Shown here: piece by piece, positions 1 through 15,675 of the stretch
How the letters are laid out: the number at the start of each line of letters is the position of its first letter
How positions within the stretch are numbered: position 1 is the stretch's first letter
Source: Candidatus Omnitrophota bacterium
GTDB lineage: Bacteria > Omnitrophota > JACPQZ01
DNA length: 18,678 bases
Direction: 5' to 3'
Assembly: GCA_016190205.1 (NCBI GenBank)
Contig: JACPQZ010000064.1
Location: 1-18,678 of the forward strand
The notes under the pieces: generated by a model
Databases searched by the model: none
Told to the model about the DNA's origin: nothing
Seen by the model: only the letters and a program-made list of their open reading frames with translations
Made by a program: the position numbers and the translations under genes

Positions 1-16
1 GTAATAGCTGTGCCGA

Positions 17-22
17 TATAAT
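17..22 (+). promoter_or_regulatory. -10 box of the XRE regulator gene
   Basis: A perfect TATAAT lies just upstream of the regulator gene. The expected start of transcription, about 7 nt further on, falls inside the palindrome at 24-41. A -35 element would lie at or beyond the window edge, so it cannot be judged. Confidence 0.6.
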
Positions 23-23
23 G

Positions 24-41
24 CTATCAATATATTGATAG
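24..41. promoter_or_regulatory. 18-bp perfect palindrome, probable operator
   Basis: CTATCAATATATTGATAG equals its own reverse complement over all 18 bases. It begins one base after the TATAAT box and covers the expected transcription start, directly before an XRE-type helix-turn-helix gene. Dimeric XRE proteins commonly bind such sites and repress their own promoter, so autoregulation is a fair inference. No second copy was seen in the window. Confidence 0.65.
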
Positions 42-66
42 TTTGTCAAGGGAAAAAAGAGCTAAC

Positions 67-258
67 ATGCTCTCCGCCAACATCAAGAAACTCCGCAAAA
101 AGCACCACCTTTCCCAGGAACAGCTCGCCAAGAAGGCGGGGGTTACCTACAGCACCCTCATCAAAATAGAGTCTGGCCTGAATAAGAACCCGACCCTCGA
201 CACACTTACAAAGCTCGCTCATGTTCTTAAGGTTAATTTGGACAGATTGGTCAGTTAG
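67..258 (+). CDS. Small XRE-family helix-turn-helix regulator
   Basis: This 63-residue protein is essentially one Cro/C1-type DNA-binding domain. The helix-turn-helix reads as LSQEQLAKKAGVTYSTLIKIE (in one-letter code, split here only by description), followed by the family's usual N-P-T-L-x-T-L-x-K-L-A stretch and a C-terminal helix. There is no second domain, so it resembles stand-alone regulators, antitoxin-like repressors or R-M controller proteins. ATG 67 was chosen because the family usually begins close to the NIKKLR helix; TTG 43 would add eight charged residues and start nearly at the mRNA end. It sits 31 bp before the epimerase gene in the same direction. Its own expression is probably controlled through the palindrome upstream. 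No toxin or methyltransferase partner is visible; the upstream side is cut by the window edge. Confidence 0.8.
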   Translation: MLSANIKKLRKKHHLSQEQLAKKAGVTYSTLIKIESGLNKNPTLDTLTKLAHVLKVNLDRLVS

Positions 259-289
259 GCGCAGTGGATAAGTCGGAGCGTTGGGGTGG

Positions 290-1294
290 ATGGCAAAAGT
301 CCTAGTTACAGGGGGCGCAGGGTTTGTGGGGTCGGCGCTGGTGCGGGCCCTGCTCAATCGGGGGGAAGACGTTCATGTCTTAGCCCGAAAAAGCAGCCAT
401 CTGGTCAATCTCACAGGCCTCAAGGTGCAGGTGCATTATGGCGACGTGTATTATCCCGAAAGCCTGCGCAACGCCATGAAAGGGGCGGAGGTGGTCTACC
501 ATACCGCCTCCGTCTACCGATTCTTCCCCTGGTGGAAACGCACGGTTCCGCCCATTTACAAGATCAACATCCAGGGCACCCAAAACGTCATTCAAACCGC
601 CCAGGAAGCGGGGGTGAAGAAGCTGATTTACACAAGCTCCATCATCACCATGGGGATCCGAAAAGACGGGGGTCTTTCCAACGAAAACACCCTTTTGAGG
701 AAGGCACAATTGGCCAGTCATTATGCCCGCTCCAAATATGACGCCGAATCGCTGGTGCTCCACGAAGCCGGGCGTGGTCTTCTGGCGGTGGTGGTCAATC
801 CAGGGATGGTGATCGGCCCAGGGGATCACAAACCGACACCTTCGGGCGAAATGATCGTTAAATTCTTGAATCGCACCTACCCCGGCTACTTTCACACGGT
901 GTTCTGCCTGGCCGACGTGGATGACGTAGCCGCGGGTCATATTGCGGCCGCCGAGAAAGGCGTTGTTGGGTCGCGATACATCCTGTGCAATCAAGAGCAT
1001 CGTTCGATGAAAGCGCTTTTTAAGATTCTAGAAAAGATTTCGGGTGTCCGGGCACCTTGGATCAAATTTCCATACCCTCTGCTTTTAGCCTTTGTCTATG
1101 CCGACGAATGGAGCGTGCGTTTGATCAAGCATCGGCCGCTGATGCCCAGCGAGGGGGTCAACTTTTGCCGCTCCTTCCTTCGCTGTGACAACACCAAAGC
1201 CGTGCAGGAGCTGGGTTACAAAACAACACCCATAGAGGAAACGCTTGAAAAAGCCGTCCGCTGGTTTCGAGATCATGGCTATGTCCACAGCTAA
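290..1294 (+). CDS. HpnA-like NAD-dependent epimerase/reductase (extended SDR)
   Basis: This 334-residue extended short-chain dehydrogenase has a Rossmann fold with the nucleotide-binding motif TGGAGFVG at residues 7-14, a Ser in TSS near 115-117 and the catalytic pair Y145-x3-K149. The stretch NPGMVIGPGDHKPTPSGE strongly recalls HpnA, the hopanoid-associated sugar epimerase family, and more loosely dihydroflavonol-reductase-like and 3-beta-hydroxysteroid dehydrogenases. Its substrate is therefore a sugar, a prenol or a sterol-like alcohol; the sequence does not decide. ATG 290 is preferred over TTG 281 because the family begins directly with the first beta strand (MAKVLVTGG). The 3' end overlaps the next gene by 20 bp, so translational coupling with the two downstream redox genes is likely. 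No squalene-hopene cyclase or other hpn gene is visible here. Confidence 0.8.
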   Translation: MAKVLVTGGAGFVGSALVRALLNRGEDVHVLARKSSHLVNLTGLKVQVHYGDVYYPESLRNAMKGAEVVYHTASVYRFFPWWKRTVPPIYKINIQGTQNVIQTAQEAGVKKLIYTSSIITMGIRKDGGLSNENTLLRKAQLASHYARSKYDAESLVLHEAGRGLLAVVVNPGMVIGPGDHKPTPSGEMIVKFLNRTYPGYFHTVFCLADVDDVAAGHIAAAEKGVVGSRYILCNQEHRSMKALFKILEKISGVRAPWIKFPYPLLLAFVYADEWSVRLIKHRPLMPSEGVNFCRSFLRCDNTKAVQELGYKTTPIEETLEKAVRWFRDHGYVHS

Positions 1295-1742
1295 ACCCGA
1301 CCACACGCTTCAGATATTAACTCTCTCTGAATACCGGATACTCAAGGCGGCCGCCGATCTTATGGTGCCGGAGGCGGTTGACTCACCTGAGACCGATCTC
1401 GCCTTCAAGATCGATACCGTACTAGCCCAAGTCCGCCCCCAGCTTCAGAGCCAGTTCAAGCAATTGTTGTGGCTGGTGGAGTGGGGCGGCCCTTTTTTAA
1501 GCTTTCGATTCCAACGCTTCACGCGTATGCCACCCCAGGGACAAGCCCGCTATCTCATAGCCTGGGAGCGCAGCCGGCTGCCCTTGAAACGGATGGGCTT
1601 TCAAGCCCTCAAGCGCAGTGTGATGGCGGCCTACTACGGCTCAGAACCGAGCTGGCAGGGGATTGGTTATAAGGGACCGTGGCTTCACCGGGGATTTCCG
1701 CATGAGTTTGAAGGCAAAGGCATCCAGACCCCCTCTGCGTGA
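1275..1742 (+). CDS. Gluconate 2-dehydrogenase subunit 3-like protein
   Basis: This 155-residue protein starts with a loose tail followed by LTLSEYRILKAAADLMVPEA, the opening of the gluconate 2-dehydrogenase subunit 3 family, and ends with the equally typical YYGSEPSWQGIGYKGPW. Members are small helical partners of a GMC-type flavoprotein dehydrogenase, often secreted together with it. Here no twin-arginine signal is visible, so the complex is probably cytoplasmic. The next gene encodes the expected GMC flavoprotein and overlaps it by 41 bp, which supports the pairing. ATG 1275 lies inside the end of the epimerase gene; ATG 1281 is an equally possible start. The catalytic chemistry would reside in the partner, with this subunit aiding assembly or electron transfer; that role is inferred from the family. 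Confidence 0.75.
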   Translation: MAMSTAKPDHTLQILTLSEYRILKAAADLMVPEAVDSPETDLAFKIDTVLAQVRPQLQSQFKQLLWLVEWGGPFLSFRFQRFTRMPPQGQARYLIAWERSRLPLKRMGFQALKRSVMAAYYGSEPSWQGIGYKGPWLHRGFPHEFEGKGIQTPSA

Positions 1743-3246
1743 TCTTGAAACCGACGTGTGCGTCGTCGGCTCAGGGGCCGGGGGCGCCGTCATGGCCAAA
1801 GAGCTGGCCGAAGGGGGCTTGCGGGTCGTCGTGCTTGAGAAAGGGGGGCGCTTCACCAAGCGTGACTTCACTCAAAAAGAAGAGGAGATGTTCCCCCGGC
1901 TGTATGAAGATGCCGGGTTGCGGGCCACTCAAGACCAGTCGGTTATCATCCTGCATGCGCAAGGGGTGGGGGGCACGACACTCGTCAACGATAACATCTG
2001 TTTCCGAACCCCGGACTTTGTACTGGAGCATTGGAAAGCGCGGGGGATTGAGCACATCGCACCCCCTCAAATGGTTCCCTACTTTGAAAAGGTGGAAAAG
2101 ACGATCGGCGTCTGCGAAATTCAAGCCGAAGAAGTCAGCCGCAACGACCAGCTTTTTTACCGCGGCGCCGCAAAGCTTGGCCTCCAGCCCAAACGTTTTT
2201 CTCACAACCGAAAAGACTGCATCGGCTGCGGCTTCTGCTACTGCGGCTGTGCCTACGACCGCAAGCAGAATATGGCGCTGACCTATCTGCCTCAGGCCGA
2301 AGTCGCCGGCGCCATGATCTTGGACCACACAGAGGCCGAAGAAATTGGCCGGAACACCAACCGGGTAACGCACATCACAGCTTCTCGAAAGGACCCTCGG
2401 ACGGGCTGTATAAAAGAGAAACTCCGCATTCGCCAAAAATGTCTCATTATCGCAGGGGGAGGAATTAGCACGCCCATCCTACTGCTTAAAAACGGGTTCG
2501 GTCGGTTAAATCCCAACGTGGGCAGGCATTTGAGCTTGCACCCAATTCTGGCCAGCTTGGGTGTGATGGCCGAAGAAGTGCGTTTCTACGAAGGAATCCC
2601 TCAGTGCGTGTATACTGATCGCATCGTTGCTTCAGAGATGGCCGGCTTCGTCCTGGAGGGGATCGGTGCCCATCCGGTGCTAACTTCCCTCGTCTTGAAT
2701 ACCTTCGGGGAAGGGCACCGCGAACGGATGCGGGACTTCAACCGGCTTACGGTCCATTACGTGATGGTGATGGACCGGCCCCAAGGCCGTATTCGGGTAG
2801 GACCCAAAGGACAGATTTCGATCACCTACCGGTTTCATCCGAGGGACCAACAAAGCTTGCGGGAAGGCATGAAGCTTTCAGCGCAGGTGTACTTTGCGGC
2901 CGGGGCTCGTAAGGTGTATCTCAATCACGTGGACGCACCCGTTCTTGAGGATAAGAGCCAAATCGAAGCCATCGACCGTCTCCGGATGGAGCCCAACCGG
3001 ATACTCCTTTACTCAGCTCATCAGATCGCAAGCTGTCGCATGGGGACTGACCCCAAACACTCTGTCACGGACTCCTTCGGCAAATTTCACGGCATGGAAA
3101 ATCTCTTTATTTCGGATGCCAGCCTCTTTCCCACTTCTTTGGGCTACAACCCCCAGGTCACCATCATGGCGCTTGCTACCCGGAATGCCGAGTATATTTT
3201 GAATTCGTCGGTCGTCTCCAAGACGGTTGGCTTTGGCGTCACGTGA
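1702..3246 (+). CDS. GMC-family FAD-dependent oxidoreductase
   Basis: This 514-residue flavoprotein has the FAD dinucleotide motif GSGAGG at residues 23-28 and the adjoining VVVLEKGG strand. Its middle carries a cysteine cluster C173-x2-C176-x2-C179-x-C181-x-C183, seen in the branch of GMC enzymes that includes long-chain alcohol oxidases; it may bind a metal or an Fe-S centre, which is not proven by sequence. The C-terminal GMC domain has the likely active-site pair H440 and N483 (GYNPQVT). It would oxidise an alcohol to an aldehyde or ketone. Start ATG 1702 follows a GGGGA stretch and keeps the N-terminus short; TTG 1663 would add 13 residues. It overlaps the subunit-3-like gene and lies downstream of the HpnA-like dehydrogenase, which suggests successive steps on the same hydroxylated substrate. 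Confidence 0.85.
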   Translation: MSLKAKASRPPLRDLETDVCVVGSGAGGAVMAKELAEGGLRVVVLEKGGRFTKRDFTQKEEEMFPRLYEDAGLRATQDQSVIILHAQGVGGTTLVNDNICFRTPDFVLEHWKARGIEHIAPPQMVPYFEKVEKTIGVCEIQAEEVSRNDQLFYRGAAKLGLQPKRFSHNRKDCIGCGFCYCGCAYDRKQNMALTYLPQAEVAGAMILDHTEAEEIGRNTNRVTHITASRKDPRTGCIKEKLRIRQKCLIIAGGGISTPILLLKNGFGRLNPNVGRHLSLHPILASLGVMAEEVRFYEGIPQCVYTDRIVASEMAGFVLEGIGAHPVLTSLVLNTFGEGHRERMRDFNRLTVHYVMVMDRPQGRIRVGPKGQISITYRFHPRDQQSLREGMKLSAQVYFAAGARKVYLNHVDAPVLEDKSQIEAIDRLRMEPNRILLYSAHQIASCRMGTDPKHSVTDSFGKFHGMENLFISDASLFPTSLGYNPQVTIMALATRNAEYILNSSVVSKTVGFGVT

Positions 3247-3340
3247 AGCATAGTCGCAGTCGTTCTACCAGAGCGCATGACCCAGGTATAATGGTCGTTG
3301 GGGGAGTAGAAGACGCGCAAGAAGGGGAAGGGCAAAATGC

Positions 3341-3600
3341 TCATCTCGGCGTCCTCCCAGTGTTAATGTATTTACAGGCATTCCAAGCAGTTTTGGTATC
3401 TACATTTAGGGCTGTGGCGATTTGAGCATAGGTCATCCCCAACAGACGTAATTCTCTTACATTTTGGGCTAATTTTTGGTATAAAGGTGTGTACTCTACA
3501 GGTAATATCTTGATCTGGGCCTGAATCTCGCCCAGGGTTCGAATTGGTCGTGACCGGGTCCAGACTTCATATTTAGAACGGTGCCGTGTTGAGGGAATCG
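3341..3600 (-). pseudogene. C-terminal remnant of a recombinase/resolvase-type HTH protein
   Basis: On the minus strand an open frame of roughly 80 codons ends at the TGA complementary to 3341-3343. It encodes ILPVEYTPLYQKLAQ followed by LRLLGMTYAQIATALNV, then TKTAWNACKYI. The second part is a clear helix-turn-helix of the kind that closes many serine-recombinase-like proteins, where it follows a PLYxKIAxKA segment. No start codon, catalytic domain or intact N-terminus is present; the frame fades into repeat sequence near 3600-3640. It is best read as a decayed mobile-element gene. The 5' limit is approximate. The base composition is AT-richer than in the neighbouring genes, which fits an imported fragment. 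Confidence 0.55.
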
Positions 3601-3640
3601 AAAGGAGCGAGGGCCCGCAACACAGCGAACTGCGACTTGT

Positions 3641-3835
3641 TCGTCGCTCGTTGATCGGTCTTCGGTGATCGCAGGATCGTTAATCGTTGATCGGTTATCG
3701 GTCATCGCAAGCGCTGTTAGCTGTCTTCTATCGGTAAACGCTGAATGACCAAGGTTTTTCTTTTCTTGCGATAACCGATCACCGAAAACCGATAAACGAA
3801 CTGGCGATAACCGATCACCGAACACCGATAACCGA
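3641..3835. repeat. Inverted repeat with arms built of 7-bp tandem units
   Basis: The left arm (3641-3711) has TCG at 3641, 3648, 3655, 3662, 3669, then 3677, 3684, 3691, 3698 and 3705: strict 7-bp steps with one 8-bp step after the fifth unit. The right arm (3765-3835) has CGA at 3769, 3776, 3783, 3790, 3797, then 3805, 3812, 3819, 3826 and 3833, with the same single 8-bp step. The reverse complement of the left arm aligns without gaps to the right arm at about 53 of 71 positions. The unit is close to CGATAAC. The arms are separated by 53 bp, so the element could form a long imperfect hairpin. No protein-coding sense was found. Confidence 0.85.
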
Positions 3836-3885
3836 CAAGGTGAATCGACGAAGTTGCGAGCCCAAACCGCCGATTCCCTCCACCT

Positions 3886-3916
3886 CCACCAATTTTGCCT
3901 TCGGCAAAATTGGTGG
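3886..3916. repeat. 14-bp stem hairpin around TTC
   Basis: CCACCAATTTTGCC and GGCAAAATTGGTGG form a perfect 14-bp inverted repeat around a 3-nt TTC centre. No T-run follows, so it does not look like a simple intrinsic terminator. The core belongs to the 31-bp direct repeat at 3892-3922 and 3994-4024. Confidence 0.8.
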
Positions 3917-4024
3917 AGCAATTGAGAATCGAAAATCGAGATTTGACATGGAGGATTCTCGATTGCGGTCAAATTTCGAATCTCGATTTTCAGATTTTGC
4001 CTTCGGCAAAATTGGTAGAGCAAT
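3892..4024. repeat. 31-bp palindromic repeat, two direct copies
   Basis: The copies at 3892-3922 and 3994-4024 match at 30 of 31 bases. Each begins ATTTTGCCTTCGGCAAAAT (a palindrome around TTC) and ends in a GAGCAAT tail. They are 102 bp apart and bracket the second heptad inverted repeat (3924-3991). They look like intergenic REP-type palindromes. Confidence 0.75.
3924..3991. repeat. Second inverted repeat with 7-bp periodic arms
   Basis: The arm at 3924-3947 and the reverse complement of 3968-3991 match at 20 of 24 positions. Within the arms TCG recurs at 7-bp steps (3929 and 3936; 3976 and 3983). The spacer is 20 bp. The unit (near GAAAATC) differs from that at 3641-3835, but the plan, heptad arms facing each other, is the same. 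Confidence 0.65.
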
Positions 4025-4145
4025 AGACAAAAAGCTCAATTGCGGTCTAATGCTCGATTGTTCTATTGTTCAAAGGAGCGGCGAGGAAGTGCCAGAAGCG
4101 TGAAGCGCATGGCGTCAGTCCACCACTAAAACGGATGTTAATGAG
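4025..4145. other. Gene-free stretch before the hairpin repeat
   Basis: It completes the non-coding interval that starts after the recombinase remnant. It holds CTCAATTGCGGTCTAAT (4035-4051), a 15-of-17 match to 3958-3974, and otherwise nothing recognised. Together with 3247-3340, which has an isolated TATAAT at 3287-3292 and no gene, it is treated as repeat-invaded spacer. Confidence 0.5.
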
Positions 4146-4192
4146 ATTGCTTCGCCCTCCTCCGCCCTTCGGGCTACGGAGGGACTCGCAAT
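4146..4192. repeat. Dispersed-type hairpin repeat before the amidase gene
   Basis: ATTGC at 4146-4150 pairs with GCAAT at 4188-4192, and CCCTCC at 4155-4160 with GGAGGG at 4178-4183, around a CCC-TTC-GGG tip, with mismatches in between. The outline, attgcttcg through ctcgcaatgac, resembles a widespread bacterial intergenic palindrome whose shadow translation reads like CHCEERSDEAIS; here the shadow frame reads VRHCESLRS. It ends about 12 bp before the ribosome binding site proposed for the amidase. Confidence 0.55.
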
Positions 4193-4218
4193 GACGGACA
4201 AAGAATAAGGGGCATACG

Positions 4219-5376
4219 ATCATCCGAACAAAAACGCTTGCCATTTTCCAACTTCTACTCCTCCTCCTTCTCGACGCCCCTTCGGCCGACGCCTACCGCA
4301 GCGCCATGGGCGAGCGGAGAGGGCCGTCGAAGACCCGCGAGTCAGCGGCCGCGCGCATGACCATCCGAGAGAGCGGTTCCGGCGTGCCGCAATGGGAAGG
4401 TTACACGAGGCAGTTTAACGGGACCCGCTATATGCCGCTTTTTTCCAAGTGCGAGCGGCACCAGGTGAGCTGGGACTGGGACGCCGCGAGCCGCCGGGTG
4501 GTTTTGGAGAAGGGCGAGGACAAGATGGTGCTTGCCCTGGGTCTTGAAGACGCGCTCGTGAATGGCGCGCTACATTCCTTTAAGCAACCTGTGGTTTTGG
4601 ACAATGGGGTGATCATGATCCCGGAGTCCATGGCTACGGACGCCTGGTGGAGTACCGCGCCGCCGCCCCCCGTCCACGTGCATCGCTTCGATTCCGTTGT
4701 GATCGATGCCGGCCATGGGGGGAAGGATCCCGGTGCGCAGGGCCCGGGGGGCATCCGGGAAAAGGACGTTGTTCTGGACATCGCCAAGCGGGTGCGGGAC
4801 ATTCTCTCTCGCTACGGGGTGCACGTCCTCATGAGCCGAAGTGACGACCGGTTCATTACCCTGGAGGGCCGGGCGCGCCTGGCCAATCAGAACGGCACCG
4901 ATTTCTTCGTGAGTATCCACGCAAATGCCTCGAAATCGAAGCGGGCCTCCGGGTTTGAGGTCTATTATCTCTCGGAGGCCATCGATGAGCATGCCCGGGC
5001 GACCGCGAGTTCAGAGAACAAGGTCTTTAACGTGAATGGGGACGAGCCCGATTTTCTTAAACAGGCGGATGCCACCCTGTGGGATTTGATCCACAGCGAA
5101 AACCGCCGCGAGAGCATGGAAATGTCTGGCATGATCGTAAACGCGATGCGCGCAGAGCTCCCTGTTCAAAACCGCGGGGTCAAGACCGCGAGGTTCTATG
5201 TCCTGCGGGGTGCGGAGACGCCTTCGGTCCTGGTCGAGGTAGGTTTTATCACGAATCCGAAAGAGGCCCAGCTTTTATCCACGCAGTTTTACCGCCAGCA
5301 GGTGGCCCAGGCCGTCTCGCAGGGAATCCTCGCATACAAGAGGCGTTTCGAAGAGACCAATGGCTTCACGGAGTAA
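4219..5376 (+). CDS. N-acetylmuramoyl-L-alanine amidase (Amidase_3), secreted
   Basis: The enzyme cuts the bond between muramic acid and the stem peptide during peptidoglycan remodelling outside the cytoplasmic membrane. Counting from ATG 4306, an AMIN/copper-amine-oxidase-N-like region spans about 40-110 and the catalytic domain 128-350, with zinc ligands H137 (AGHGG), E152 and H205 (SIHAN) and the catalytic E311 (VEVGF). ATG 4306 would leave a secreted enzyme without a signal peptide. The same frame is open back to 4195 and encodes RTKTLAIFQLLLLLLL then a SADA-Y cleavage site. No ATG, GTG or TTG exists in that stretch; ATC 4219 sits 6 nt after AAGGGG (4207-4212) and is my proposed, non-standard start. 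If that is wrong, the annotated start falls at 4306. It is followed by murI, which begins inside its last codons. Confidence 0.8.
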   Translation: MIRTKTLAIFQLLLLLLLDAPSADAYRSAMGERRGPSKTRESAAARMTIRESGSGVPQWEGYTRQFNGTRYMPLFSKCERHQVSWDWDAASRRVVLEKGEDKMVLALGLEDALVNGALHSFKQPVVLDNGVIMIPESMATDAWWSTAPPPPVHVHRFDSVVIDAGHGGKDPGAQGPGGIREKDVVLDIAKRVRDILSRYGVHVLMSRSDDRFITLEGRARLANQNGTDFFVSIHANASKSKRASGFEVYYLSEAIDEHARATASSENKVFNVNGDEPDFLKQADATLWDLIHSENRRESMEMSGMIVNAMRAELPVQNRGVKTARFYVLRGAETPSVLVEVGFITNPKEAQLLSTQFYRQQVAQAVSQGILAYKRRFEETNGFTE

Positions 5377-6256
5377 TGCACGCCGAAATCGCGGGCTTCG
5401 CCACCGGTCTCGGGTCTCGGGTCTCGGGTCTCGGGTCTCGGTCTCCGCTCGCCCAATCGGGGTATTCGATTCGGGGCTGGGGGGACTTACCGTCGTGCGG
5501 CAGCTCGCCCGCGTACTCCCCAAGGAAGACGTCATTTATTTGGGCGACTTGGCCCGGTTGCCCTATGGCCCCAAATCGGACCGAGAGATCATCCGCTACA
5601 GCGAACAGGCCGTCACCTTTCTCAAGCGGCAGGGCATCAAATTCCTGGTGATTGCCTGTAATTCGGTTTCTTCCATCGCCTACCCCGAGCTTAAAAAGCG
5701 CTTCACCCTGCCCATGGTGGGGGTGATCGCCCCCTGCGTGGAAGAGGCATTTCTCGCGACGCGCGCGGGCAGAGTAGGGGTCATCGGCACCCAGGCTACG
5801 ATTCGCAGCCGGGCGTACGCCAAGATCATGACGCGCCATGACAGCCGCATGCGCGTTTTCTCCAAGGCATGCCCTCTTTTTGTGTCACTGGTGGAGGAGG
5901 GCTGGTTGAATGGAACGGTCACGACGCGGGTCGCGCGCAAGTACCTTATGTCGTTAAAGCGGCGGGGGATCGACACCCTTATTTTGGGGTGCACCCATTA
6001 TCCACCCCTGGCGCCCACCATTCGGAGGGTTTTGGGGAGGGGAGTGCGGCTCATCATGTCCGGCGACGCGACCGCCGAAAGGGTCAAGCACATGCTCGCG
6101 GAACGGGGGCTATTGAGGATGGGGCGGCATACGGGTTCGATCCGTTGTTTTGTCACGGACGCGCCGGAAAGGTTCCGGGTGCTGGGCCAGAGGTTTCTGG
6201 GGCCCGTCATCAAGCGGCGCGTGAGATCCATCCGGGAGGTCCGGATCGATGTTTGA
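5360..6256 (+). CDS. murI: Glutamate racemase
   Basis: It converts L-glutamate to D-glutamate for peptidoglycan. The body starts at PIGVFDSGLGGLTV (residues 32-45), with the two catalytic cysteines at C100 (IACNS) and C211 (GCTHYP), the D37/S38 pair and the YLGD segment near 60-63. Usual racemases begin only a few residues before that glycine-rich start; here about 31 extra residues precede it, and residues 16-29 are translated from the tandem GGTCTCG array. ATG 5360 is the only standard start in frame and lies 17 bp inside the amidase gene, behind a weak GAAGAGA purine stretch. ATG 5376 overlaps the amidase stop (TAATG) but is in another frame. The 3' end overlaps queD by 8 bp (ATGTTTGA). 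Confidence 0.9.
   Translation: MASRSNARRNRGLRHRSRVSGLGSRVSVSARPIGVFDSGLGGLTVVRQLARVLPKEDVIYLGDLARLPYGPKSDREIIRYSEQAVTFLKRQGIKFLVIACNSVSSIAYPELKKRFTLPMVGVIAPCVEEAFLATRAGRVGVIGTQATIRSRAYAKIMTRHDSRMRVFSKACPLFVSLVEEGWLNGTVTTRVARKYLMSLKRRGIDTLILGCTHYPPLAPTIRRVLGRGVRLIMSGDATAERVKHMLAERGLLRMGRHTGSIRCFVTDAPERFRVLGQRFLGPVIKRRVRSIREVRIDV
5406..5446 (+). repeat. Tandem heptanucleotide array in murI
   Basis: Five identical GGTCTCG units run from 5406 to 5440, followed by a partial GTCTCC. The array is inside the translated 5' end of murI. The unit contains no stop codon in any frame and is not a multiple of three, so each gain or loss of one unit shifts the frame. Confidence 0.95.
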
Positions 6257-6620
6257 GATCAAGGTCACGGAACAGTTTTGTGCCTCCCACCAGTTGCGTG
6301 GCCACGACGGGCGCTGTGAAAACCTGCACGGGCATAACTGGCAGGTGGATGTCGCGGCCGAGAGCCGCGAGCTTGATAAGATAGGAGTGGTGGTGGATTT
6401 CGAGGAGGTCAAGCGCACCCTGCATGACATCTTGGAGGAATTCGACCACAGAAATTTGAACGACTGCCCGCCTTTTGATAATGGTAAGAATCCCACCGCA
6501 GAGCTTTTGGCGGAGCATATTTATGCGAGCCTTGAAAAGGCGTTCGGCGCCGGGAGATTTCGGTTTACGTCCGTCACGGTCTGGGAAACAAAGGATGCCT
6601 GCGCTACGTACCGGCCTTAG
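6249..6620 (+). CDS. queD: 6-carboxytetrahydropterin synthase QueD
   Basis: This 123-residue protein catalyses the second step towards preQ0, turning dihydroneopterin triphosphate into 6-carboxy-tetrahydropterin in the cytoplasm. The zinc ligands are H14 (CASH), H27 and H29 (the LHGHNW motif), the catalytic cysteine is C23 in CENLHGH, and D66-H67 (FDHRNLND) forms the second part of the site. NPTAEL and VTVWET complete the family signature. Length is normal for bacterial QueD. It overlaps the end of murI and its last 26 bp overlap queC, so the preQ0 genes are translationally linked to the cell-wall genes before them. The related eukaryotic-type PTPS is less likely given the queC-queE neighbours. 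Confidence 0.93.
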   Translation: MFEIKVTEQFCASHQLRGHDGRCENLHGHNWQVDVAAESRELDKIGVVVDFEEVKRTLHDILEEFDHRNLNDCPPFDNGKNPTAELLAEHIYASLEKAFGAGRFRFTSVTVWETKDACATYRP

Positions 6621-7302
6621 GTCAGCTGTCATACTCTTGTCGGGAGGGTTGGACTCGGCCGTGGCGCTTTACCTTGCCCGCGAGCAGGACTATCGTCTCC
6701 ACGCCTTGAGCTTTGACTACGGCCAAAGGCACTGCCGGGAACTGAAGTCGGCCGAAGCTGTTGCCGATGAGGCGGGGGCGATTTGGCGGGCAGTGAAGAT
6801 TTCTTTACCGTGGGGGGGGAGCGCGCTCACGGATGAAAAGGTCGCTGTCCCCACCCCGCGCCCGGCCGAGAAGATGAGGCAGGAAATCCCCGTGACCTAT
6901 GTCCCGGCGCGGAACACGATTTTCTTGAGCTTCGCCGCCTCCTGGGCGGAAGTGGTTGGGGCCGGGGCGATCTTTATAGGCGCTAATTCAATCGATTTCA
7001 GCGGCTACCCCGACTGCCGCCCGGAATATTTTGAACACTTCCATGAGCTTATCCGCGCGGGGACGCGCGCGGGGACCTTGGGCCGGGCGCCGGAGATCGC
7101 GGCCCCCCTGGTGAATATGACCAAGGCCGATATCGTCCGGGAAGGACAGCGGCTGGGCGTTCCTTTCGAAATTACGTGGTCGTGCTACCGCGGCGGGGAG
7201 GCCCCCTGTGAGAATTGCGAGGCCTGCGCCCTCCGAGCCCGCGGATTCGAAGAGGCCGGCATCGCTGATCCTCTAGTAACAAGGTCAGTCGCGAGTCGCT
7301 AG
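6595..7302 (+). CDS. queC: 7-cyano-7-deazaguanine synthase QueC
   Basis: QueC uses ATP and ammonia to turn 7-carboxy-7-deazaguanine into preQ0. The N-type ATP pyrophosphatase loop SGGLDS is at residues 16-21, and the zinc site uses C197, C205, C208 and C211 (SCYRGGEAPCENCEAC). Length 235 is normal. ATG 6595 was chosen because it places the PP-loop strand close to the N-terminus; ATG 6475 lies deep in queD and would add 40 unrelated residues. A purine-rich GGGAAACAAAGG precedes it. The C-terminal tail RSVASR and the stop codon are encoded by the left arm of the heptad inverted repeat at 7288-7317, so the native end seems to have been replaced. Confidence 0.93.
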   Translation: MPALRTGLRSAVILLSGGLDSAVALYLAREQDYRLHALSFDYGQRHCRELKSAEAVADEAGAIWRAVKISLPWGGSALTDEKVAVPTPRPAEKMRQEIPVTYVPARNTIFLSFAASWAEVVGAGAIFIGANSIDFSGYPDCRPEYFEHFHELIRAGTRAGTLGRAPEIAAPLVNMTKADIVREGQRLGVPFEITWSCYRGGEAPCENCEACALRARGFEEAGIADPLVTRSVASR

Positions 7303-7440
7303 ATGCTAGTCGCTAGCAAACAAAAACATTGTCGGCCCTTATTGGTTGATTCTGCCTTACTTGCGGCAATTGCCTGGGAACAAAGGAAAGAAGGTAGATG
7401 ATGATATTACGCCAGCGACCAGCGACCAGCGACCAGCGAC
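7288..7440. repeat. Third heptad-armed inverted repeat, across the queC-queE junction
   Basis: The left arm, 7288-7317, reads GTCGCGA, GTCGCTA, GATGCTA, GTCGCTA, GC. The right arm, 7411-7440, is GC followed by four CAGCGAC units, whose reverse complement is GTCGCTG four times and GC. The arms match at 23 of 30 positions without gaps. The 93-bp spacer holds the ribosome binding site and start codons of queE; the left arm holds the queC stop codon. Confidence 0.85.
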
Positions 7441-8138
7441 TTACGGGGTCCGCGGAAATTCACGAAATCTTCTTCTCTTTCCAGGGCGAGGGCATCTTGG
7501 TGGGCGAGCCCATGGTCTTTGTGCGTTTCGCCTATTGCGATCTGGCCTGCCGGTTCTGTGACACCCCGCCCCCTAAGACGCCAACACTCATGGCAATCGC
7601 TGAAATTGCGGGCGAGGTGAGCCGCCTCAATGCCGCCGAGGGGCCTTTTCGATTTGTGAGTCTTACCGGAGGTGAGCCGCTCCGCTATGCCGCGGCGCTC
7701 CGGGGGCTTTTGCCCCGGCTCATTGACTCCGGGTTCAAAACTTATCTGGAAAGCGATGGGACTAAGGCCCGGGAACTGGAAGAGGTTATTCAGTGGGTTC
7801 ACCTCATCGCCATGGATATCAAACTTCCTTCGAGCACGGGGATGAGGCCTTTCTGGACGGAGCACGAGTCTTTTCTAAATGTTGCCCGACGCACTGAATA
7901 TTTCATTAAGGTGGTTGTCACGGGGTCCACTCCGGCCCGCGAGGTGAACGAAGCCGCGCGGCTCGCCGCCCGGTTTAACCCAAACACCCCTTTTATTATC
8001 CAGCCGGCCTCTCCGTTCGGCGATTTCCGGGATGCCCCTGGCGCGGATGCACTCCCTGCTTTCGTGCGCGCGGCGCGCGCACACCTAGAGGACGTGCGGG
8101 TCATCGGGCAAAACCACAAGCTCATCGGGGTGCGCTAA
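7398..8138 (+). CDS. queE: 7-carboxy-7-deazaguanine synthase QueE (radical SAM)
   Basis: QueE converts 6-carboxy-tetrahydropterin to 7-carboxy-7-deazaguanine. The protein has the QueE opening EIFFSFQGEG with G-E-P-M-V-F-V-R, then C47-x3-C51-x2-C54 binding the radical-SAM 4Fe-4S cluster, and SLTGGEPL for SAM binding. Length 246 is within the family range. ATG 7398 is supported by a purine-rich AAGGAAAGAAGG just upstream; ATG 7401 is equally possible. Residues 6-14 (QRPATSDQR) come from the heptad array, so about 18 residues before the family core are not conserved sequence but translated repeat. It lies between queC and the nucleotide pyrophosphatase gene, all in one direction. Confidence 0.92.
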   Translation: MMILRQRPATSDQRLTGSAEIHEIFFSFQGEGILVGEPMVFVRFAYCDLACRFCDTPPPKTPTLMAIAEIAGEVSRLNAAEGPFRFVSLTGGEPLRYAAALRGLLPRLIDSGFKTYLESDGTKARELEEVIQWVHLIAMDIKLPSSTGMRPFWTEHESFLNVARRTEYFIKVVVTGSTPAREVNEAARLAARFNPNTPFIIQPASPFGDFRDAPGADALPAFVRAARAHLEDVRVIGQNHKLIGVR

Positions 8139-8145
8139 GGCCCGG

Positions 8146-8751
8146 ATGAACACGCTCGTCCTGGCCACGCTGAATCATAAAAAGGCGAAAGAGCTGCGGG
8201 ACCTTCTGGGGAAGGTCCCTTTCCGTGTGCGCGCATGGTCGGATTTTAACGGGGTCCGGAAGGTTCGCGAGGGGGGCCGGACATACCGGGAAAACGCTGT
8301 TAAAAAGGCCCGCGCCGCGGCAAAGGCAACGGGTTTTTGGACCCTCGCAGACGATTCGGGTCTCGAAGTTGAAGCCTTGGGAGGCCGGCCTGGAGTGCGC
8401 ACGGCCCGTTTTGCACGCAAGAGGAAGGGGATCACGCAGGATGAGTCCAATAACCGCAAGTTGCTGAAGGTGTTGCGCGGGGCGCGGGCAGCGCGCCGCG
8501 CGGCCCGGTTCCGCTGCGTGATTGCGGTAGTGAGTCCGCAGGGCATGCTTTTTGTAAGTGAGGGGGTTCTCAAGGGCCGCATTGCTGAAGCGCCCAGGGG
8601 GCGCTCCGGGTTCGGATACGATCCGGTCTTTCTGGTCCCCGGATATGGAAAGACTGTAGCGCAGTTGGGCAAGCAAGTGAAGCGCCGCATCAGTCATCGC
8701 GCAAAGGCGGTGCGCAAGGCGCGGCGCTGGCTGATGAGGACAATTACTTGA
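8146..8751 (+). CDS. rdgB: XTP/dITP pyrophosphatase (RdgB/HAM1 family)
   Basis: The enzyme hydrolyses deaminated purine nucleoside triphosphates to monophosphates, keeping inosine and xanthosine out of DNA and RNA. The family landmarks are LATLNHKKAKEL at the N-terminus, ADDSGLEVEALGGRPGV with the metal-binding D69/D70, SGFGYDPVF in the middle and SHRAKAV near the end. Length 201 is normal. The start ATG 8146 follows AAGG at 8137-8140. The protein is unusually rich in Arg and Lys (KVRE, RAARRAARF). It is last in the co-directional run beginning at the amidase, and its final 8 bp overlap the convergent AsmA-like gene tail to tail, leaving no room for a separate terminator. Confidence 0.92.
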   Translation: MNTLVLATLNHKKAKELRDLLGKVPFRVRAWSDFNGVRKVREGGRTYRENAVKKARAAAKATGFWTLADDSGLEVEALGGRPGVRTARFARKRKGITQDESNNRKLLKVLRGARAARRAARFRCVIAVVSPQGMLFVSEGVLKGRIAEAPRGRSGFGYDPVFLVPGYGKTVAQLGKQVKRRISHRAKAVRKARRWLMRTIT

Positions 8752-10759
8752 GCCGTTCGAGCAGGGGTTCCAGCACCCCTCTTTGCAGGGTATCCCAGAG
8801 GATGCGGTCGGGGCGCAGGTATTTGGGGTTGTATTTGGGCTTGTCCAGGGTGCCGGTAATCTCGATTTCCGAGTACTTCAAGAACTTGTCCGAGAGGATG
8901 GGCAGCTGACCCGTAGGGTCGGGGTTTTCAGGACTCACCTGGGCGATGATGTTTAAGTTGAGAGACTTGTCAAAACCGATATCGCCCTGGGCCACAAGCT
9001 CATAGTAGGATGACTTAAGCACCAGCCGGTCGCTCATGATTTTTTTCTCCTGGACGACGAAATCCCCCTGCGCGCCGTAGATGGGGATGGTGTCCAGTCC
9101 GGGGAGCTTGAGGACCCGCCCCAGTCCCGCGAGGAGCGGGATTTCCCAGATTTGGCCTTCGTCGAGAAGTATCCTTCCCTCGCCCGTCAAGGTGCCGATA
9201 TCCTCCTGTTTTCCATAGAAATAGGCTTCCGCGTTCACCTTTCCGGAAATCATTTTCCGCTCGACCGTTTTGGGAGGAAGGAGTCCGGCGAGCTCTACCC
9301 GGCTTACGTTCAAACGGCCCTCATAGGGTTTTCCCGGGGCTTTTAAATCTATTCCCCCCACGGCACGCACGCGTCCTCCGTAGAGCCCCGCGCTCAAGTT
9401 TTCCAAGGTAAGGCGCCCCGCGCTTAAGGCGGCCGTTGCTTCCGTCCGGTTCAGCTGGTAACGCCAAACTGTGAGACCGGGGCTCGTGATGCGGGCGCGG
9501 CCATTTATTTGGGAAATCTCCTTACCCCTGATCTCGACCGCGCCCTCCATGCGGATGGCCCCTTCCGCGGGGATGGTTTGGACAAAATCGTCGCCTGGCA
9601 GGAGCTGGTTTAAATCTGCCAGGTTTATGTCCAGGGTACCTTCGAGATTCAGGGAGGGCGCCGATCTTAAAGATGGAACGAGACCCCGCGCCTTGAATGA
9701 AACGTTGCGGTACAAACCCTCAAGACTTTGAATCTCGATGCGATCGGGCTGGATTCCTAAAACGGTTGAATAAAGGGCGTCCTGCGATTCGATCTTAAGC
9801 CTTGCCAAGGGGTACTCCTCCATGACCAGGGTCCCCTTTAATAAGTACGACGTCTTGCCGAACAGGGCCTTGACTTCCTTTAAGTCTACGCGGTCCTTTT
9901 CGAAAACAATGTCGGCGGACACGTCTTTCAATTCCTGCGCAATTTTCGGGTGGGCGAGGCGCGCGTTTTTCAACTTAAGACTGCCGGAGATTTCGTAGTC
10001 CTGCGGCCGCTCGAGGGGGAGCAAATAGAAGGCCTGCGCGCTGAGCCTGCCGGAAAGCGAAAATTCGGGGCGCAGGCCCTTGAGTTTTTCCTGGATAAGC
10101 TCTGCGACGGGTTTGAGGTCCGCGTCGCTGGATGCCCGGATCGAAAGTTTGGGGGCATCCGTCCGGTCAAGGGTGGCCTCCACCTTGACGGGGATGGCAA
10201 AGATCGCGGCCTCAAGGTCGTGAGCGGTGATTTCCTTTTCATCGAGGAAGACGCTCCCATTAAGTTCCTCTATGGAGCCGACGTAAGGAAGGCCGGAGAG
10301 GTTTCCTTCTGTAATAAACAGCGCGCCCCCTGCCTCGACCTCATGAGAGGGGTCCAGGGGGATCTTGATAGAGCCCTGGAGGGCCAGGTTTGCGCGCAGG
10401 CCCTCTGCCTTGCCGTGCAGAAGAACATCTCGCAGCTGAATGGAGGTAACCGTGAGCTTGCGCCGGAAGATGAGGTCCAGCAGGCGTACCCGGATTTTGA
10501 CCTCTTTTGCCTCGACAAAGGGCGCTGATTCAGCGGGGCCCTCGTGCAATGTGATGTTTTTGAAGGTGAGGCCCCCTCCAAGACCTAAGGAAACGTCTCC
10601 CACCTCGAAAGAGCGCCCCAGCGCCCGGCTCACGGCGTTTGTGAGCGCCTCTTTTCCGGGGCCGGGGAGCCAGGAGCGTGAAAGCCAAACCCAGAGGCCG
10701 ACAAAGGCAATGACAGCGACGAGGGCCAGCACAATCGCAATGCGCAGTGCAGATTTCAT
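8744..10759 (-). CDS. AsmA-family envelope protein
   Basis: This 671-residue protein has one N-terminal membrane segment (about residues 3-26, IAIVLALVAVIAFVGLWVWL) followed by a long beta-rich region with repeating patterns such as VGDVSLGLGGGLTFKNITL and IQLRDVLLHGKAEGL. That is the design of AsmA/TamB-like proteins, which are thought to bridge the periplasm and take part in lipid transport or outer-membrane assembly. The C-terminal part (LNIIAQVSP through EITGTLDKPKYNP) matches the AsmA-like C-terminal region. ATG 10759 was chosen over ATG 10774: the membrane helix then starts at once, and a TATAAT at 10771-10766 ends 6 nt before it, suggesting a leaderless or very short-leader message. 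It is the only minus-strand gene of the window apart from the recombinase remnant. Confidence 0.8.
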   Translation of the reverse strand: MKSALRIAIVLALVAVIAFVGLWVWLSRSWLPGPGKEALTNAVSRALGRSFEVGDVSLGLGGGLTFKNITLHEGPAESAPFVEAKEVKIRVRLLDLIFRRKLTVTSIQLRDVLLHGKAEGLRANLALQGSIKIPLDPSHEVEAGGALFITEGNLSGLPYVGSIEELNGSVFLDEKEITAHDLEAAIFAIPVKVEATLDRTDAPKLSIRASSDADLKPVAELIQEKLKGLRPEFSLSGRLSAQAFYLLPLERPQDYEISGSLKLKNARLAHPKIAQELKDVSADIVFEKDRVDLKEVKALFGKTSYLLKGTLVMEEYPLARLKIESQDALYSTVLGIQPDRIEIQSLEGLYRNVSFKARGLVPSLRSAPSLNLEGTLDINLADLNQLLPGDDFVQTIPAEGAIRMEGAVEIRGKEISQINGRARITSPGLTVWRYQLNRTEATAALSAGRLTLENLSAGLYGGRVRAVGGIDLKAPGKPYEGRLNVSRVELAGLLPPKTVERKMISGKVNAEAYFYGKQEDIGTLTGEGRILLDEGQIWEIPLLAGLGRVLKLPGLDTIPIYGAQGDFVVQEKKIMSDRLVLKSSYYELVAQGDIGFDKSLNLNIIAQVSPENPDPTGQLPILSDKFLKYSEIEITGTLDKPKYNPKYLRPDRILWDTLQRGVLEPLLERLK

Positions 10760-10765
10760 AGTGAC

Positions 10766-10771
10766 ATTATA
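10766..10771 (-). promoter_or_regulatory. -10 box of the AsmA-like gene
   Basis: Read on the minus strand this is TATAAT, ending 6 nt before ATG 10759. The start of transcription would coincide with the A of the start codon. No good -35 hexamer is visible. Confidence 0.45.
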
Positions 10772-10787
10772 CACACTTGTTGTACAC

Positions 10788-10793
10788 TATAAT
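10788..10793 (+). promoter_or_regulatory. -10 box of the tRNA-Pro/tRNA-Arg unit
   Basis: A perfect TATAAT lies 14 bp before tRNA-Pro. The expected -35 region falls on the opposite-strand -10 box at 10766-10771, so the two promoters overlap. No consensus -35 was recognised. Confidence 0.5.
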
Positions 10794-10807
10794 AGTTTAG
10801 AACCATG

Positions 10808-10882
10808 CGGGGTGTAGCTCAGCTTGGCTAGAGCGCTTGCTTTGGGAGCAAGAAGTCCTCGGTTCGAATCCGGGCACCCCGA
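10808..10882 (+). tRNA. tRNA-Pro (anticodon TGG)
   Basis: The acceptor stem CGGGGTG pairs fully with CACCCCG and is followed by discriminator A. The anticodon stem CTTGC/GCAAG carries loop TTTGGGA with anticodon TGG. The T arm contains GGTTCGAATCC. CCA is not encoded. Confidence 0.95.
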
Positions 10883-10887
10883 TTCGA

Positions 10888-10961
10888 GCGCCTGTAGCTC
10901 AGTTGGAAAGAGCATCGGCCTTCTAAGCCGAGGGTCACTGGTTCGAATCCAGTCAGGCGCA
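10888..10961 (+). tRNA. tRNA-Arg (anticodon TCT)
   Basis: GCGCCTG pairs with CAGGCGC, then discriminator A. The anticodon stem TCGGC/GCCGA holds loop CTTCTAA with anticodon TCT. The T arm is CTGGTTCGAATCCAG. CCA is not encoded. It lies 5 bp after tRNA-Pro and is probably cotranscribed. Confidence 0.95.
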
Positions 10962-10978
10962 TGCTTATGCGGCACATT

Positions 10979-10987
10979 TGATACAAT
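10979..10987 (+). promoter_or_regulatory. Extended -10 promoter of the PTS EIIA gene
   Basis: TGATACAAT fits an extended -10 element (TGn followed by TACAAT). The same 11 bases TGATACAATAG recur at 16172-16182 before the aminotransferase gene. The -35 position would fall on the 3' end of tRNA-Arg. Confidence 0.5.
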
Positions 10988-11005
10988 AGTCGAAGGAGGT
11001 ATTCC

Positions 11006-11449
11006 TTGATCGGTTTGGTGGTAAACGAACAGCGCGTCGTAGATCTGAAGGCCAAAGACAAAAAAACAGCCATCTGCGAGCTGGTAGGACTTATGGCGCA
11101 GGGGGGTTACATCCAACGCCCTGATGAGGCGTGCAAGGCGCTCCTCGAACGCGAGAAGATCTTGAGCACGGGGATCGGACTTGAGATCGCCGTGCCGCAC
11201 GCGCGGCTTGAGACGGTCGACAAGATCATTATGGCGATGGGCCGGCAGAAGGCGGGGATTCCCTTTGACGCCATAGACGGAAAGCCCGTCAAGCTCCTCT
11301 TTCTCATCGTGGGCCCGGAGGCGGCCCAAAGGCAGTATCTCAAGCTCCTAGCGCGCATCGTTCAGGTCATCAAAAAGTCCAGACTGCGTGAGAAGCTCCT
11401 CAAAGCGGCTGATGCCAAGGAGATGTACAGCATCCTGAAGCTGTATTAG
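11006..11449 (+). CDS. PTS EIIA type-2 domain protein (PtsN-like)
   Basis: This 147-residue single-domain protein matches the fructose/nitrogen-type EIIA fold: LLEREKILSTGIGLEIAVPHAR with the phospho-accepting H65, then VKLLFLIVGPEAAQRQYLKLLARI. In complete systems the histidine receives phosphate from HPr or NPr and passes it to a sugar permease or uses it for regulation. No EIIB, EIIC or HPr gene is nearby, so a regulatory, PtsN-like role is more likely than sugar uptake. TTG 11006 is chosen because AAGGAGGT at 10993-11000 lies 5 nt before it, a near-perfect ribosome binding site. The ABC exporter genes follow 19 bp downstream. Confidence 0.87.
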   Translation: MIGLVVNEQRVVDLKAKDKKTAICELVGLMAQGGYIQRPDEACKALLEREKILSTGIGLEIAVPHARLETVDKIIMAMGRQKAGIPFDAIDGKPVKLLFLIVGPEAAQRQYLKLLARIVQVIKKSRLREKLLKAADAKEMYSILKLY

Positions 11450-11468
11450 GTAGCAGGGCGCTTGCCCC

Positions 11469-13223
11469 ATGAAACCGCATTATCTTTTCTCCATCCTCCG
11501 CTGTTACCGGCGGGGTTTTTTTCTGGGATTTTTAAGTCTCATCGTTGTAAACCTGCTCGTGCTCGCCGTCCCGATGCTTACGAAATGGGCGGTGGACGCG
11601 ATCGGGGCGGCGCGCCCGCCGGGCGAGATCCTTCCCATTACGCTGGCCATCATCCTGGCCGGCGCCTTCATGGTTTTGTTCCGCTACCAGTGGAGGACCA
11701 AGATTTTTAATACGGCGCGGCACGTGGAGCGCCACATGCGGGACGATTTTTTTGCGCACCTCTTTCGCCTGCCGCAGGAGTTCTTCGACCGCACGCGCAC
11801 GGGGGATCTCTTAGCCATCGCCATGAATGATTTGGGCGCCATCCGGACCTTCGTCGGGGCCGGGGTCCTCTCGGCATTTGACGCGCTCCTCATCATCTGC
11901 CTTTCGCTCGTTATGATGGCCGTCCTGGACAGGCAGCTGACGCTGTGGATCATGATCCCGCTTCCTTTTATTTCCTGGAGCGCTTGGGCCATGGGACGGC
12001 GCATTCACAGATTGCACGACAGGATTCAATCCCTCTATGGAGATCTCGCGGCCAGGGTGACGGAAGACATCAACGGCATCCGCGTGATCAAGTCTTTCGC
12101 GCGCGAGGATGCGCGCCGCAAGAAATTTCACCGCCTGTGCGATGAGTATTTCGGGGCGAACATGGAGGCCTCGGGACTGCAGGCTGTCTTCCGGCCCTTT
12201 ATGAGGTTTTTAGGCGGGCTGGCCCTCACCATCCTCCTGTATCGGGGCGGGCTGGATGTCATTCAGGGGAGAATCAGCTTCGGCACCTTTGTGGCGTTTA
12301 CCGGATATGTGGGCCTTTTGAGCGGTCCCCTCATGGCAATCGGCTGGTTCTTGAGCCTGTACGAGCGCGCGCGGGTGTCGTGGGGCCGCGTGCGGTCTGT
12401 GCTGGGCCTTCCGGAGCAGGAGAGGGCGGAGCGCGGCGCGGTCAAGCGAGACCGGCACAGCAAATCCGCCGCAGGCCTTAAGGTCCAAAATCTCACGTAT
12501 ACCTATAAGGGCAGTACGCAACCTGCGCTTCGGGATGTGTCCTTCTCTGTGCCTGTGGGAAAGAGCCTGGCGGTGGTGGGGCCCGTCGGAAGCGGAAAAT
12601 CGACCCTGCTTCACCTCGCCCTGCGTATCTATGACCCTCCGGAGGGGACTATGTACGTAGGGGAGAAAGACGTGCGTTTATTCGAAATGAGCGGGTTGCG
12701 CGACGAGTTCGCTTTTGTGCCCCAGGATTCGTTTATCTTCAGCGCGACCCTCAAAGAAAACCTTGCCTTCGGAAAGAGCGATCTTAAGGATGCCGAGGCA
12801 GGGGAGTTTGTGGCGCGCGTCGGCATGGGGCATGAGGTGGAGGGCTTTGATAAGGGCGTCCACACGCTCATTGGGGAGCGCGGGATCACCCTATCCGGCG
12901 GCCAGCGCCAGCGCCTGTCTCTCGCGCGTGCCCTGGCAAAGGAGGCGCCCATTTTGCTTTTGGACGACCCTTTTTCAAGCGTGGATGTAAGGACGGAAAA
13001 GGAAATTCTGGACAGGCTTTTTGAGAAAAGAGACGGCAGGACGTTATTACTCGTCTCACAGCGTATCGAGGCCGTCCGGCGGGCGGATTTAATTTTGGTG
13101 CTCGATGAGGGCCGCGTGGTGGGGGAGGGGGATCACCTGTCCCTCATGCGCGACTCCCGGCTCTATCGCGATCTTTTTGAGCGGCAATTGCTGCATGAAG
13201 GAGTGCCCGGCCATGTCCGGTAA
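11469..13223 (+). CDS. ABC exporter half-transporter, degenerate ATP site (MdlA-like)
   Basis: The 584-residue protein has a six-helix membrane domain (about residues 15-310) fused to an ATPase domain. Walker A is GPVGSGKST (371-379), the Q-loop Q419, the signature LSGGQ 475-479 and Walker B ILLLDD (495-500). The catalytic glutamate after Walker B is replaced by D500 and the switch histidine by Q531 (LLVSQR). These two changes mark the degenerate partner of heterodimeric exporters such as TM287/288, BmrCD and MdlAB. It would work in the inner membrane as a dimer with the next gene product, exporting lipids, drugs or peptides; the cargo cannot be read from sequence. It overlaps the next gene by 11 bp. 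Confidence 0.9.
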   Translation: MKPHYLFSILRCYRRGFFLGFLSLIVVNLLVLAVPMLTKWAVDAIGAARPPGEILPITLAIILAGAFMVLFRYQWRTKIFNTARHVERHMRDDFFAHLFRLPQEFFDRTRTGDLLAIAMNDLGAIRTFVGAGVLSAFDALLIICLSLVMMAVLDRQLTLWIMIPLPFISWSAWAMGRRIHRLHDRIQSLYGDLAARVTEDINGIRVIKSFAREDARRKKFHRLCDEYFGANMEASGLQAVFRPFMRFLGGLALTILLYRGGLDVIQGRISFGTFVAFTGYVGLLSGPLMAIGWFLSLYERARVSWGRVRSVLGLPEQERAERGAVKRDRHSKSAAGLKVQNLTYTYKGSTQPALRDVSFSVPVGKSLAVVGPVGSGKSTLLHLALRIYDPPEGTMYVGEKDVRLFEMSGLRDEFAFVPQDSFIFSATLKENLAFGKSDLKDAEAGEFVARVGMGHEVEGFDKGVHTLIGERGITLSGGQRQRLSLARALAKEAPILLLDDPFSSVDVRTEKEILDRLFEKRDGRTLLLVSQRIEAVRRADLILVLDEGRVVGEGDHLSLMRDSRLYRDLFERQLLHEGVPGHVR

Positions 13224-14952: not shown

Positions 14953-14958
14953 TATAAT
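14950..14958 (+). promoter_or_regulatory. Extended -10 promoter of tRNA-His
   Basis: TGATATAAT is an extended -10 element 12 bp before the tRNA. It overlaps the stop codon of the ABC gene (TGA 14950-14952). Confidence 0.6.
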
Positions 14959-14970
14959 AATCCACCCTAT

Positions 14971-15044
14971 GGTGGGTGTAGCTCAGCCGGCAGAGCACCT
15001 GACTGTGGCTCAGGGGGCCGTGGGTTCAAATCCCATCACCCACC
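14971..15044 (+). tRNA. tRNA-His (anticodon GTG)
   Basis: GTGGGTG (14972-14978) pairs with CACCCAC (15037-15043). The extra 5' G at 14971 faces C 15044, the G-1:C73 pair typical of tRNA-His. The anticodon stem CCTGA/TCAGG holds loop CTGTGGC with anticodon GTG. A full CCA is not encoded. Confidence 0.95.
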
Positions 15045-15055
15045 CATCTTATTTC

Positions 15056-15069
15056 GGTACCGGGTACGA
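15056..15069. repeat. GTACC pair at 7-bp spacing, left flank of the lipoprotein gene
   Basis: GGTACCGGGTACGA contains two GGTAC cores 7 bp apart. A similar pair, GGTACCTGGTACC, occurs at 15600-15612, and the surrounding TTTCGGTACCKGGTAC matches in both places. Together they flank the AT-rich lipoprotein gene. Confidence 0.6.
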
Positions 15070-15099
15070 TGGTGCCGGTTTCGCTCGGAGGGGTGTAAC

Positions 15100-15576: not shown

Positions 15577-15599
15577 GTTTTCCTTTCCATTTTCTTTTC

Positions 15600-15612
15600 G
15601 GTACCTGGTACC
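15600..15612. repeat. GTACC pair at 7-bp spacing, right flank of the lipoprotein gene
   Basis: GGTACCTGGTACC has two GGTACC cores 7 bp apart and is preceded by TTTTC, as in the left copy at 15056. A third, weaker pair, GTACCAAGTACC, is at 16156-16167. Confidence 0.6.
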
Positions 15613-15669
15613 GCGGAGCGAGGTTCGCGCAAGGTTTCGCAGGTTTAGGCCCCCAATCTAAAAATCGTG

Positions 15670-15675
15670 TATAAT
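15670..15675 (+). promoter_or_regulatory. -10 box of the response regulator gene
   Basis: A perfect TATAAT stands 63 bp before ATG 15739. The -35 region shows no consensus. The leader of about 55 nt holds no recognised riboswitch. Confidence 0.45.

Follow-up and report, generated by a model that had tools for sequence, protein, structure and literature searches.

Tandem repeats of bacteria are over-abundant in heptamers, as described by Mrazek 2007 and taken up in PMC4679880 and PMC4692102, whose passages on the 7-bp excess offer only a guess at its cause, the footprint of the polymerase. The heptamers GGGAATC of Xanthomonas (PMC4692102) and TAACTGA of Beggiatoaceae (PMC4679880) are examples, and oppositely oriented heptamer pairs number 70 in X. 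campestris, where the arrays lie close together, and 75 in another Xanthomonas genome (PMC4692102). The heptad arrays described here share with such heptameric SSRs (LSSR/STRR), which include the heptanucleotides of Calothrix, an over-represented 7-bp unit, an intergenic location and a variable unit number. They differ in the use of some 50 words in one genome, in strongly diverged arrays, in nested hairpins with layer-specific words, in occupying 23.5% of the sampled intergenic bases (an upper estimate) and in having invaded ribosomal junctions.

The Foldback and Galileo elements of eukaryotes consist of long inverted arms built from short tandem subrepeats that vary in number; they are the topic of PMC4168063 and PMC3169594. 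Heptad hairpins resemble them in having inverted arms of tandem subrepeats of varying number, but are bacterial, far smaller, and known with neither a transposase nor a target duplication. REP stems measure 5–13 bp and carry a GTAG or CGTC tag, with 8–9 bp for the CGTC REPs (PMC3116915, PMC3733652). Like REP, REPIN and BIME sequences, the elements described here are short, dispersed intergenic hairpins in inverted arrangement; unlike them, the window family has stems of ~30–70 bp, formed by heptad arrays of variable length, and no RAYT neighbour was found. With MITEs, as defined in PMC3116915, they have in common a non-coding sequence of about 100–400 bp, inverted repeats and dispersal, whereas no target duplication, fixed ends or cognate transposase was found for heptad hairpins.

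The window analyzed here is a stretch of 18,678 nt (contig JACPQZ010000064.1, positions 1–18,678) from Candidatus Omnitrophota bacterium (GCA_016190205.1), a 1.65-Mb metagenome-assembled genome (MAG) of 76 contigs. Comparisons of QueC and of ribosomal protein S3 both group it with Omnitrophota; its S3 is 53–60% identical to that of named Omnitrophota genomes and 48–54% identical to that of named genomes from other phyla. We propose, with a probability of roughly two in three, that an inverted heptad repeat in this window is one copy of a dispersed, non-coding family of imperfect hairpins that grows by 7-bp slippage. Earlier papers already describe both an excess of heptamers and heptamers paired in inversion; the present case is a strong variant of this, set apart by its many words, diverged arrays, nested hairpins and invaded junctions of an essential operon. 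The genome shows the 7-bp excess in extreme form, combined with nested inversion and with insertion at operon junctions of known usual length, and offers a way to address, through slippage assays and the comparison of strains, why the step is seven and how inverted arms arise.

Architecture of the window element

A spacer of 1,059 bp, which separates a GMC-type oxidoreductase gene from an N-acetylmuramoyl-L-alanine amidase gene, contains the element. The left arm (3641–3711, plus strand) carries ten TCG marks, five at 3641, 3648, 3655, 3662 and 3669 and, after a single 8-bp step, five at 3677, 3684, 3691, 3698 and 3705. The right arm (3765–3835, minus strand) carries ten CGA marks at 3769, 3776, 3783, 3790 and 3797, followed after the same step by 3805, 3812, 3819, 3826 and 3833. 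The two 71-nt arms are complementary without gaps at 53 of 71 positions (75%) and enclose a loop of 53 nt (3712–3764). Marks and gapless alignment had been described in a sequence-only reading, which also suggested a large hairpin with the 53-bp centre as its loop, and our analysis confirms them. The segment folds into a predicted RNA structure of −77.5 kcal/mol (z = −6.4), with none of 200 shuffled sequences equally stable, and into a DNA structure with z = −5.6; overall, its folds (z −5.6 to −6.9) lie far above shuffled sequence in stability.

The earlier reading took the 8-bp step for a slip in a 7-bp repeat and argued that a slip shared by both arms meant that one had been copied from the other, or both from one template. 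The true repeat unit is instead 36 bp, comprising five heptads plus one base (5 × 7 + 1), with an inner side that ends in TCGC. A repeat finder describes each arm as two direct units at 36-bp spacing (D2 91%, D3 82%) and additionally lists several inverted pairs in the element; matches between units of the heptad array amount to 68%. Specifically, the left arm consists of ~36-bp units at 3641–3676 and 3677–3711, with five TCG heptads each and the inner end TCGCAAG, and the right arm of ~36-bp units at 3765–3800 and 3801–3835, with the inner end CTTGCGA. Single-unit versions, with the inner boundary TCGCAA...TTGCGA, are frequent elsewhere in the genome. In both arms, the 8-bp step marks the place where two 36-bp units join; that copying must have caused it is not supported. 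What stands of the argument is that the long hairpin is non-random and no artefact, and that both arms come from one repeat family.

A search of the window against Rfam 15 at the gathering score returned three tRNAs only and no family for the hairpin. We considered and rejected an intrinsic terminator: a T-rich tract adjoins, on either strand, just 15 of 60 hairpins, and no U/T tract follows the window hairpin.

Other heptad features occur in the window. The spacer of the main element contains a second, weaker inverted pair (3918–3997) with words like CAATCGA; it is flanked, within 3884–4030, by a 37-nt direct repeat (92%) in which the palindrome ATTTTGCCTTCGGCAAAAT occurs twice. An array of GGTCTCG (5.9 units, 5406–5445, plus strand) occupies the gap from the amidase gene to the next called start (5376–5494). 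At the junction between queC and a radical SAM gene (7302–7496), arrays of AGTCGCT (7287–7316) and CCAGCGA (7412–7440) have inverted words, a relation read from their consensus units. An open stretch on the minus strand (P0001, 3340–3598) resembles a fragment of a helix-turn-helix protein and has no Pfam match.

Copies at other loci and change in the arms

Searching the host genome for the family gave 67 matches at about 25 loci, three of them near full length. Near-identical elements are found at two further loci, C7:21874–22074 and C33:12047–12212. Whole elements, with left arm, loop and right arm, occur at unrelated loci, and their arms change unit number independently. The loop of the window element is common to the C33 copy and partly to the C7 copy. 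Its left flank (3593–3640) is common to the C7 copy and absent from the C33 copy, with homology reaching ~3593 in one other copy, and its right flank (3836–3878) is common to copies on C70 (L155) and C28 (L167) and absent from those on C7 and C33.

Comparison of these copies lends no support to copying between arms as the necessary cause of the shared step: the arms evolve separately, and neither is a recent copy of its partner. Between the window and the C7 copy, left arms are 90% and right arms 96% identical, versus 75% (window) and 71% (C7) for left against right within one copy; same-side arms match better across loci than the two arms of one element, and divergence of the arms therefore preceded the dispersal of the element. 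Arm lengths, too, change independently. In the C33 copy, the left arm has two units plus an extra heptad (+7 bp), which is reflected in its overall identity of 77% to the window left arm, and the right arm has one unit only. The end of contig C73 (L006) and the start of C39 (L009) have a tRNA-Leu flank in common, but one heptad arm shows a clean gap of 29 bp between them; these two ends may be paralogues or strain variants.

We also compared the four variable positions of each heptad between arms of the same element and arms of foreign elements. As soon as the comparison takes in more than one heptad, likeness between own arms does not exceed that between foreign ones (0.667 vs 0.645, p = 0.23; 0.556 vs 0.554, p = 0.48), and no own-arm excess appears in two other genera, represented by 4 and 5 elements only. 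The innermost heptad alone has a small own-arm excess (0.653 vs 0.556, p = 0.02). That variable positions are unmatched between own arms argues against continuing arm-to-arm copying. We accordingly regard as distinctly unlikely a mirror-copying process in which fold-back of the nascent strand at replication lets one arm be rewritten time and again from its partner, with the slip kept in register. The 71-nt gapless pairing with a joint at the matching place, the slightly greater likeness of innermost heptads and the frequency of inverted partners agree with such a process, and all observations would fit one such event at the founding of the element; the better match of same-side arms across loci, the unmatched variable positions and the unequal unit numbers in other copies do not favor it. 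A founding inverted duplication may have occurred, or a hairpin may have become nested or inserted in another's loop. C26:5900–6260 and C42:2510–2910 clearly show nested hairpins whose layers differ in their words.

In the reading that we prefer, that of a dispersed family growing by slippage, the stems are arrays of diverged 7-bp words with a TCG...CGA core, this family being one of many that the genome harbors. Units would multiply inside each arm by slippage in 7-bp steps, and the 36-bp units may stem from duplication on a larger scale or from a hairpin that landed in another's loop. Now and then a whole hairpin would be copied to a further gene junction, surviving if it breaks no gene, and no host function need be assumed. 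Slippage by itself leaves unexplained the inverted partners and the words common to distant loci.

Another possible explanation is a miniature element of the conventional type, either a MITE or a REPIN, mobilized in trans by a transposase or RAYT. Size, hairpin shape and intergenic dispersal suit such an element, and the genome has four Y1_Tnp (PF01797) RAYT-like genes. A heptad hairpin, however, lies beside none of these four genes, and of the 285 genomes examined from the phylum, 232 have the Y1_Tnp family, with or without heptads. No target-site duplication was found at a consistent offset across copies, and no fixed element ends, since homology stops at different places in different copies, giving mosaic borders. 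The outer heptad TCGTCGC does contain CGTC, but there it belongs to the array, and the stems far exceed the 8–9 bp of CGTC REPs. We rejected a classical transposon for want of target duplication, fixed ends and a RAYT neighbor, and consider it rather improbable that a MITE or REPIN of any conventional kind accounts for the family. Because target duplication is absent, ends vary and no transposase is linked, mobility is argued from the paralogous copies only. Elsewhere, a RAYT-like gene (L195, G000:C13, ~1330–2110) is flanked by hairpins of the ACACACATGTGTGT type; this locus, which has no relation to the heptads, is a candidate for a true REP/RAYT pair.

Several contigs of this MAG end inside heptad hairpins. 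An origin in assembly or amplification, which these ends and the metagenomic source of the genome might suggest, is hardly credible in view of a family with diverged arms at ~25 loci, many of them deep inside long contigs, and of similar hairpins in independent assemblies. For metagenomics there is a warning here: contigs break at heptad repeats, and the hairpins may pass for regulatory RNAs.

Heptad arrays between genes and in the ribosomal-protein cluster

Genome-wide statistics were obtained from a 363-kb sample of the host genome, whose stretches were partly chosen for family members; this choice biases absolute array densities upward and leaves the contrast between periods unaffected. In the sample, each 100 kb holds 39 regions of period 7, whereas no period other than multiples of 7 exceeds 1.9. 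Heptad arrays sit almost only between genes, the ribosomal-protein cluster included: coding sequence makes up 89% of the sample, yet only 16 period-7 regions fall in it, as opposed to 132 in intergenic DNA, and about half of the 16 lie at the extreme start or end of a gene, where start and stop calls are uncertain. Each other period tested has 0–6 intergenic regions. Period-7 arrays make up 23.5% of intergenic bases, an upper estimate given the sampling. They fall into 53 word clusters, have an inverted partner in 104 of 202 cases and a direct partner in 27 of 202, and form the arms of 29 of 35 long inverted repeats.

Arrays begin at a median of 8 nt past a stop codon and end at a median of 20 nt ahead of the next start. 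TCG arrays at L021, L023, L167 and L168 start at or just past a stop codon (TGATTCG, TAGATTCG) or immediately behind a tRNA 3′ end. Arrays are present in 15 of 32 tRNA-flanking spacers versus 61 of 190 other spacers, an association that is suggestive only. Within heptads, sorted column conservation drops from 0.98 to 0.50, near-perfect identity between units is not seen, and in a neutral simulation of duplication and mutation the columns vary no less than they do here (ratio 0.82). Contiguity of the three best-conserved columns is above chance (30% vs 20%) when each word cluster has one vote, which reduces the effect; this contiguity hints at a constrained core, unexpected from pure slippage alone.

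In the fusA-to-adk ribosomal-protein cluster, whose genes were identified mostly by Pfam and, for a few small ones, from protein sequence, period-7 arrays are present at 13 or more of 23 junctions. Wide gaps in the cluster are mostly filled by heptad hairpins, many of which have stable predicted folds (z down to −11). The rpsS–rplV and rplV–rpsC spacers measure 131 and 133 nt here, versus medians of 14 and 8 nt in 36–37 other genomes, and this comparison of orthologous spacers at two junctions shows a gain relative to other lineages. In another genome of the phylum, G002 (L281), inverted arrays with 8-bp steps lie in the same two gaps (942–1042 and 1432–1489); this lineage uses eight in place of seven. 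The same operon of an Acidobacterium (G295, L304) has heptad hairpins with other words, CAATCCG, CAGAATC and AAATGAC.

Such positions raise the question of whether the hairpins are selected inter-cistronic stem-loops acting in mRNA processing, stability or termination, with the heptad core as a binding motif. Their placement shortly after stops and before starts, the filling of most wide ribosomal gaps by sequences that often fold well, and the contiguity of conserved columns are in line with a functional RNA. This explanation nevertheless seems to us very improbable, given the scarcity of T-rich tracts, the some 50 different words in one genome, the patchy presence among relatives and the variable positions that are not matched for pairing. 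Genes of the ribosomal-protein cluster are normally co-transcribed, and hairpins at its junctions are therefore unlikely to be efficient terminators. As members of a slippage-grown family, the hairpins would act in transcripts like inter-cistronic REP/BIME stem-loops and probably not terminate efficiently.

Distribution in other genomes

Relatives were compared at the level of the phylum, with 285 genomes of Omnitrophota. Five TCG marks at 7-bp steps occur in 87 of them, versus 4 for 8-bp steps, and the TCGGTKW word of the window family in 6. Among 30 loci taken from further members of the phylum, 12 have an inverted partner to the heptad array, 9 a direct partner and 9 none. Heptad arrays are thus widespread yet patchy in the phylum, and inverted pairing is common, not universal.

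Beyond the phylum, an ACCAG heptad is found in 17 of 297 Acidobacteriota genomes and in viral contigs too. The reversed-pattern control GACCA, likewise at 7-bp steps, is far commoner than ACCAG in some Acidobacteriota. With this control and the viral matches, we rejected the notion of universal heptad words, which look lineage-specific instead. A broader proposal is that one unrecognized process, involving neither RAYT nor TIR, constructs hairpins in steps of exactly 7 bp and spreads them to gene–gene junctions in bacteria of several phyla, most wide gaps of the ribosomal operon included, with words peculiar to each lineage; we hold this to be a tentative and, on balance, unlikely generalization.

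GACCA at 7-bp steps reaches 173, 117 and 156 matches per genome in the Acidobacteriota G558, G539 and G307, respectively.
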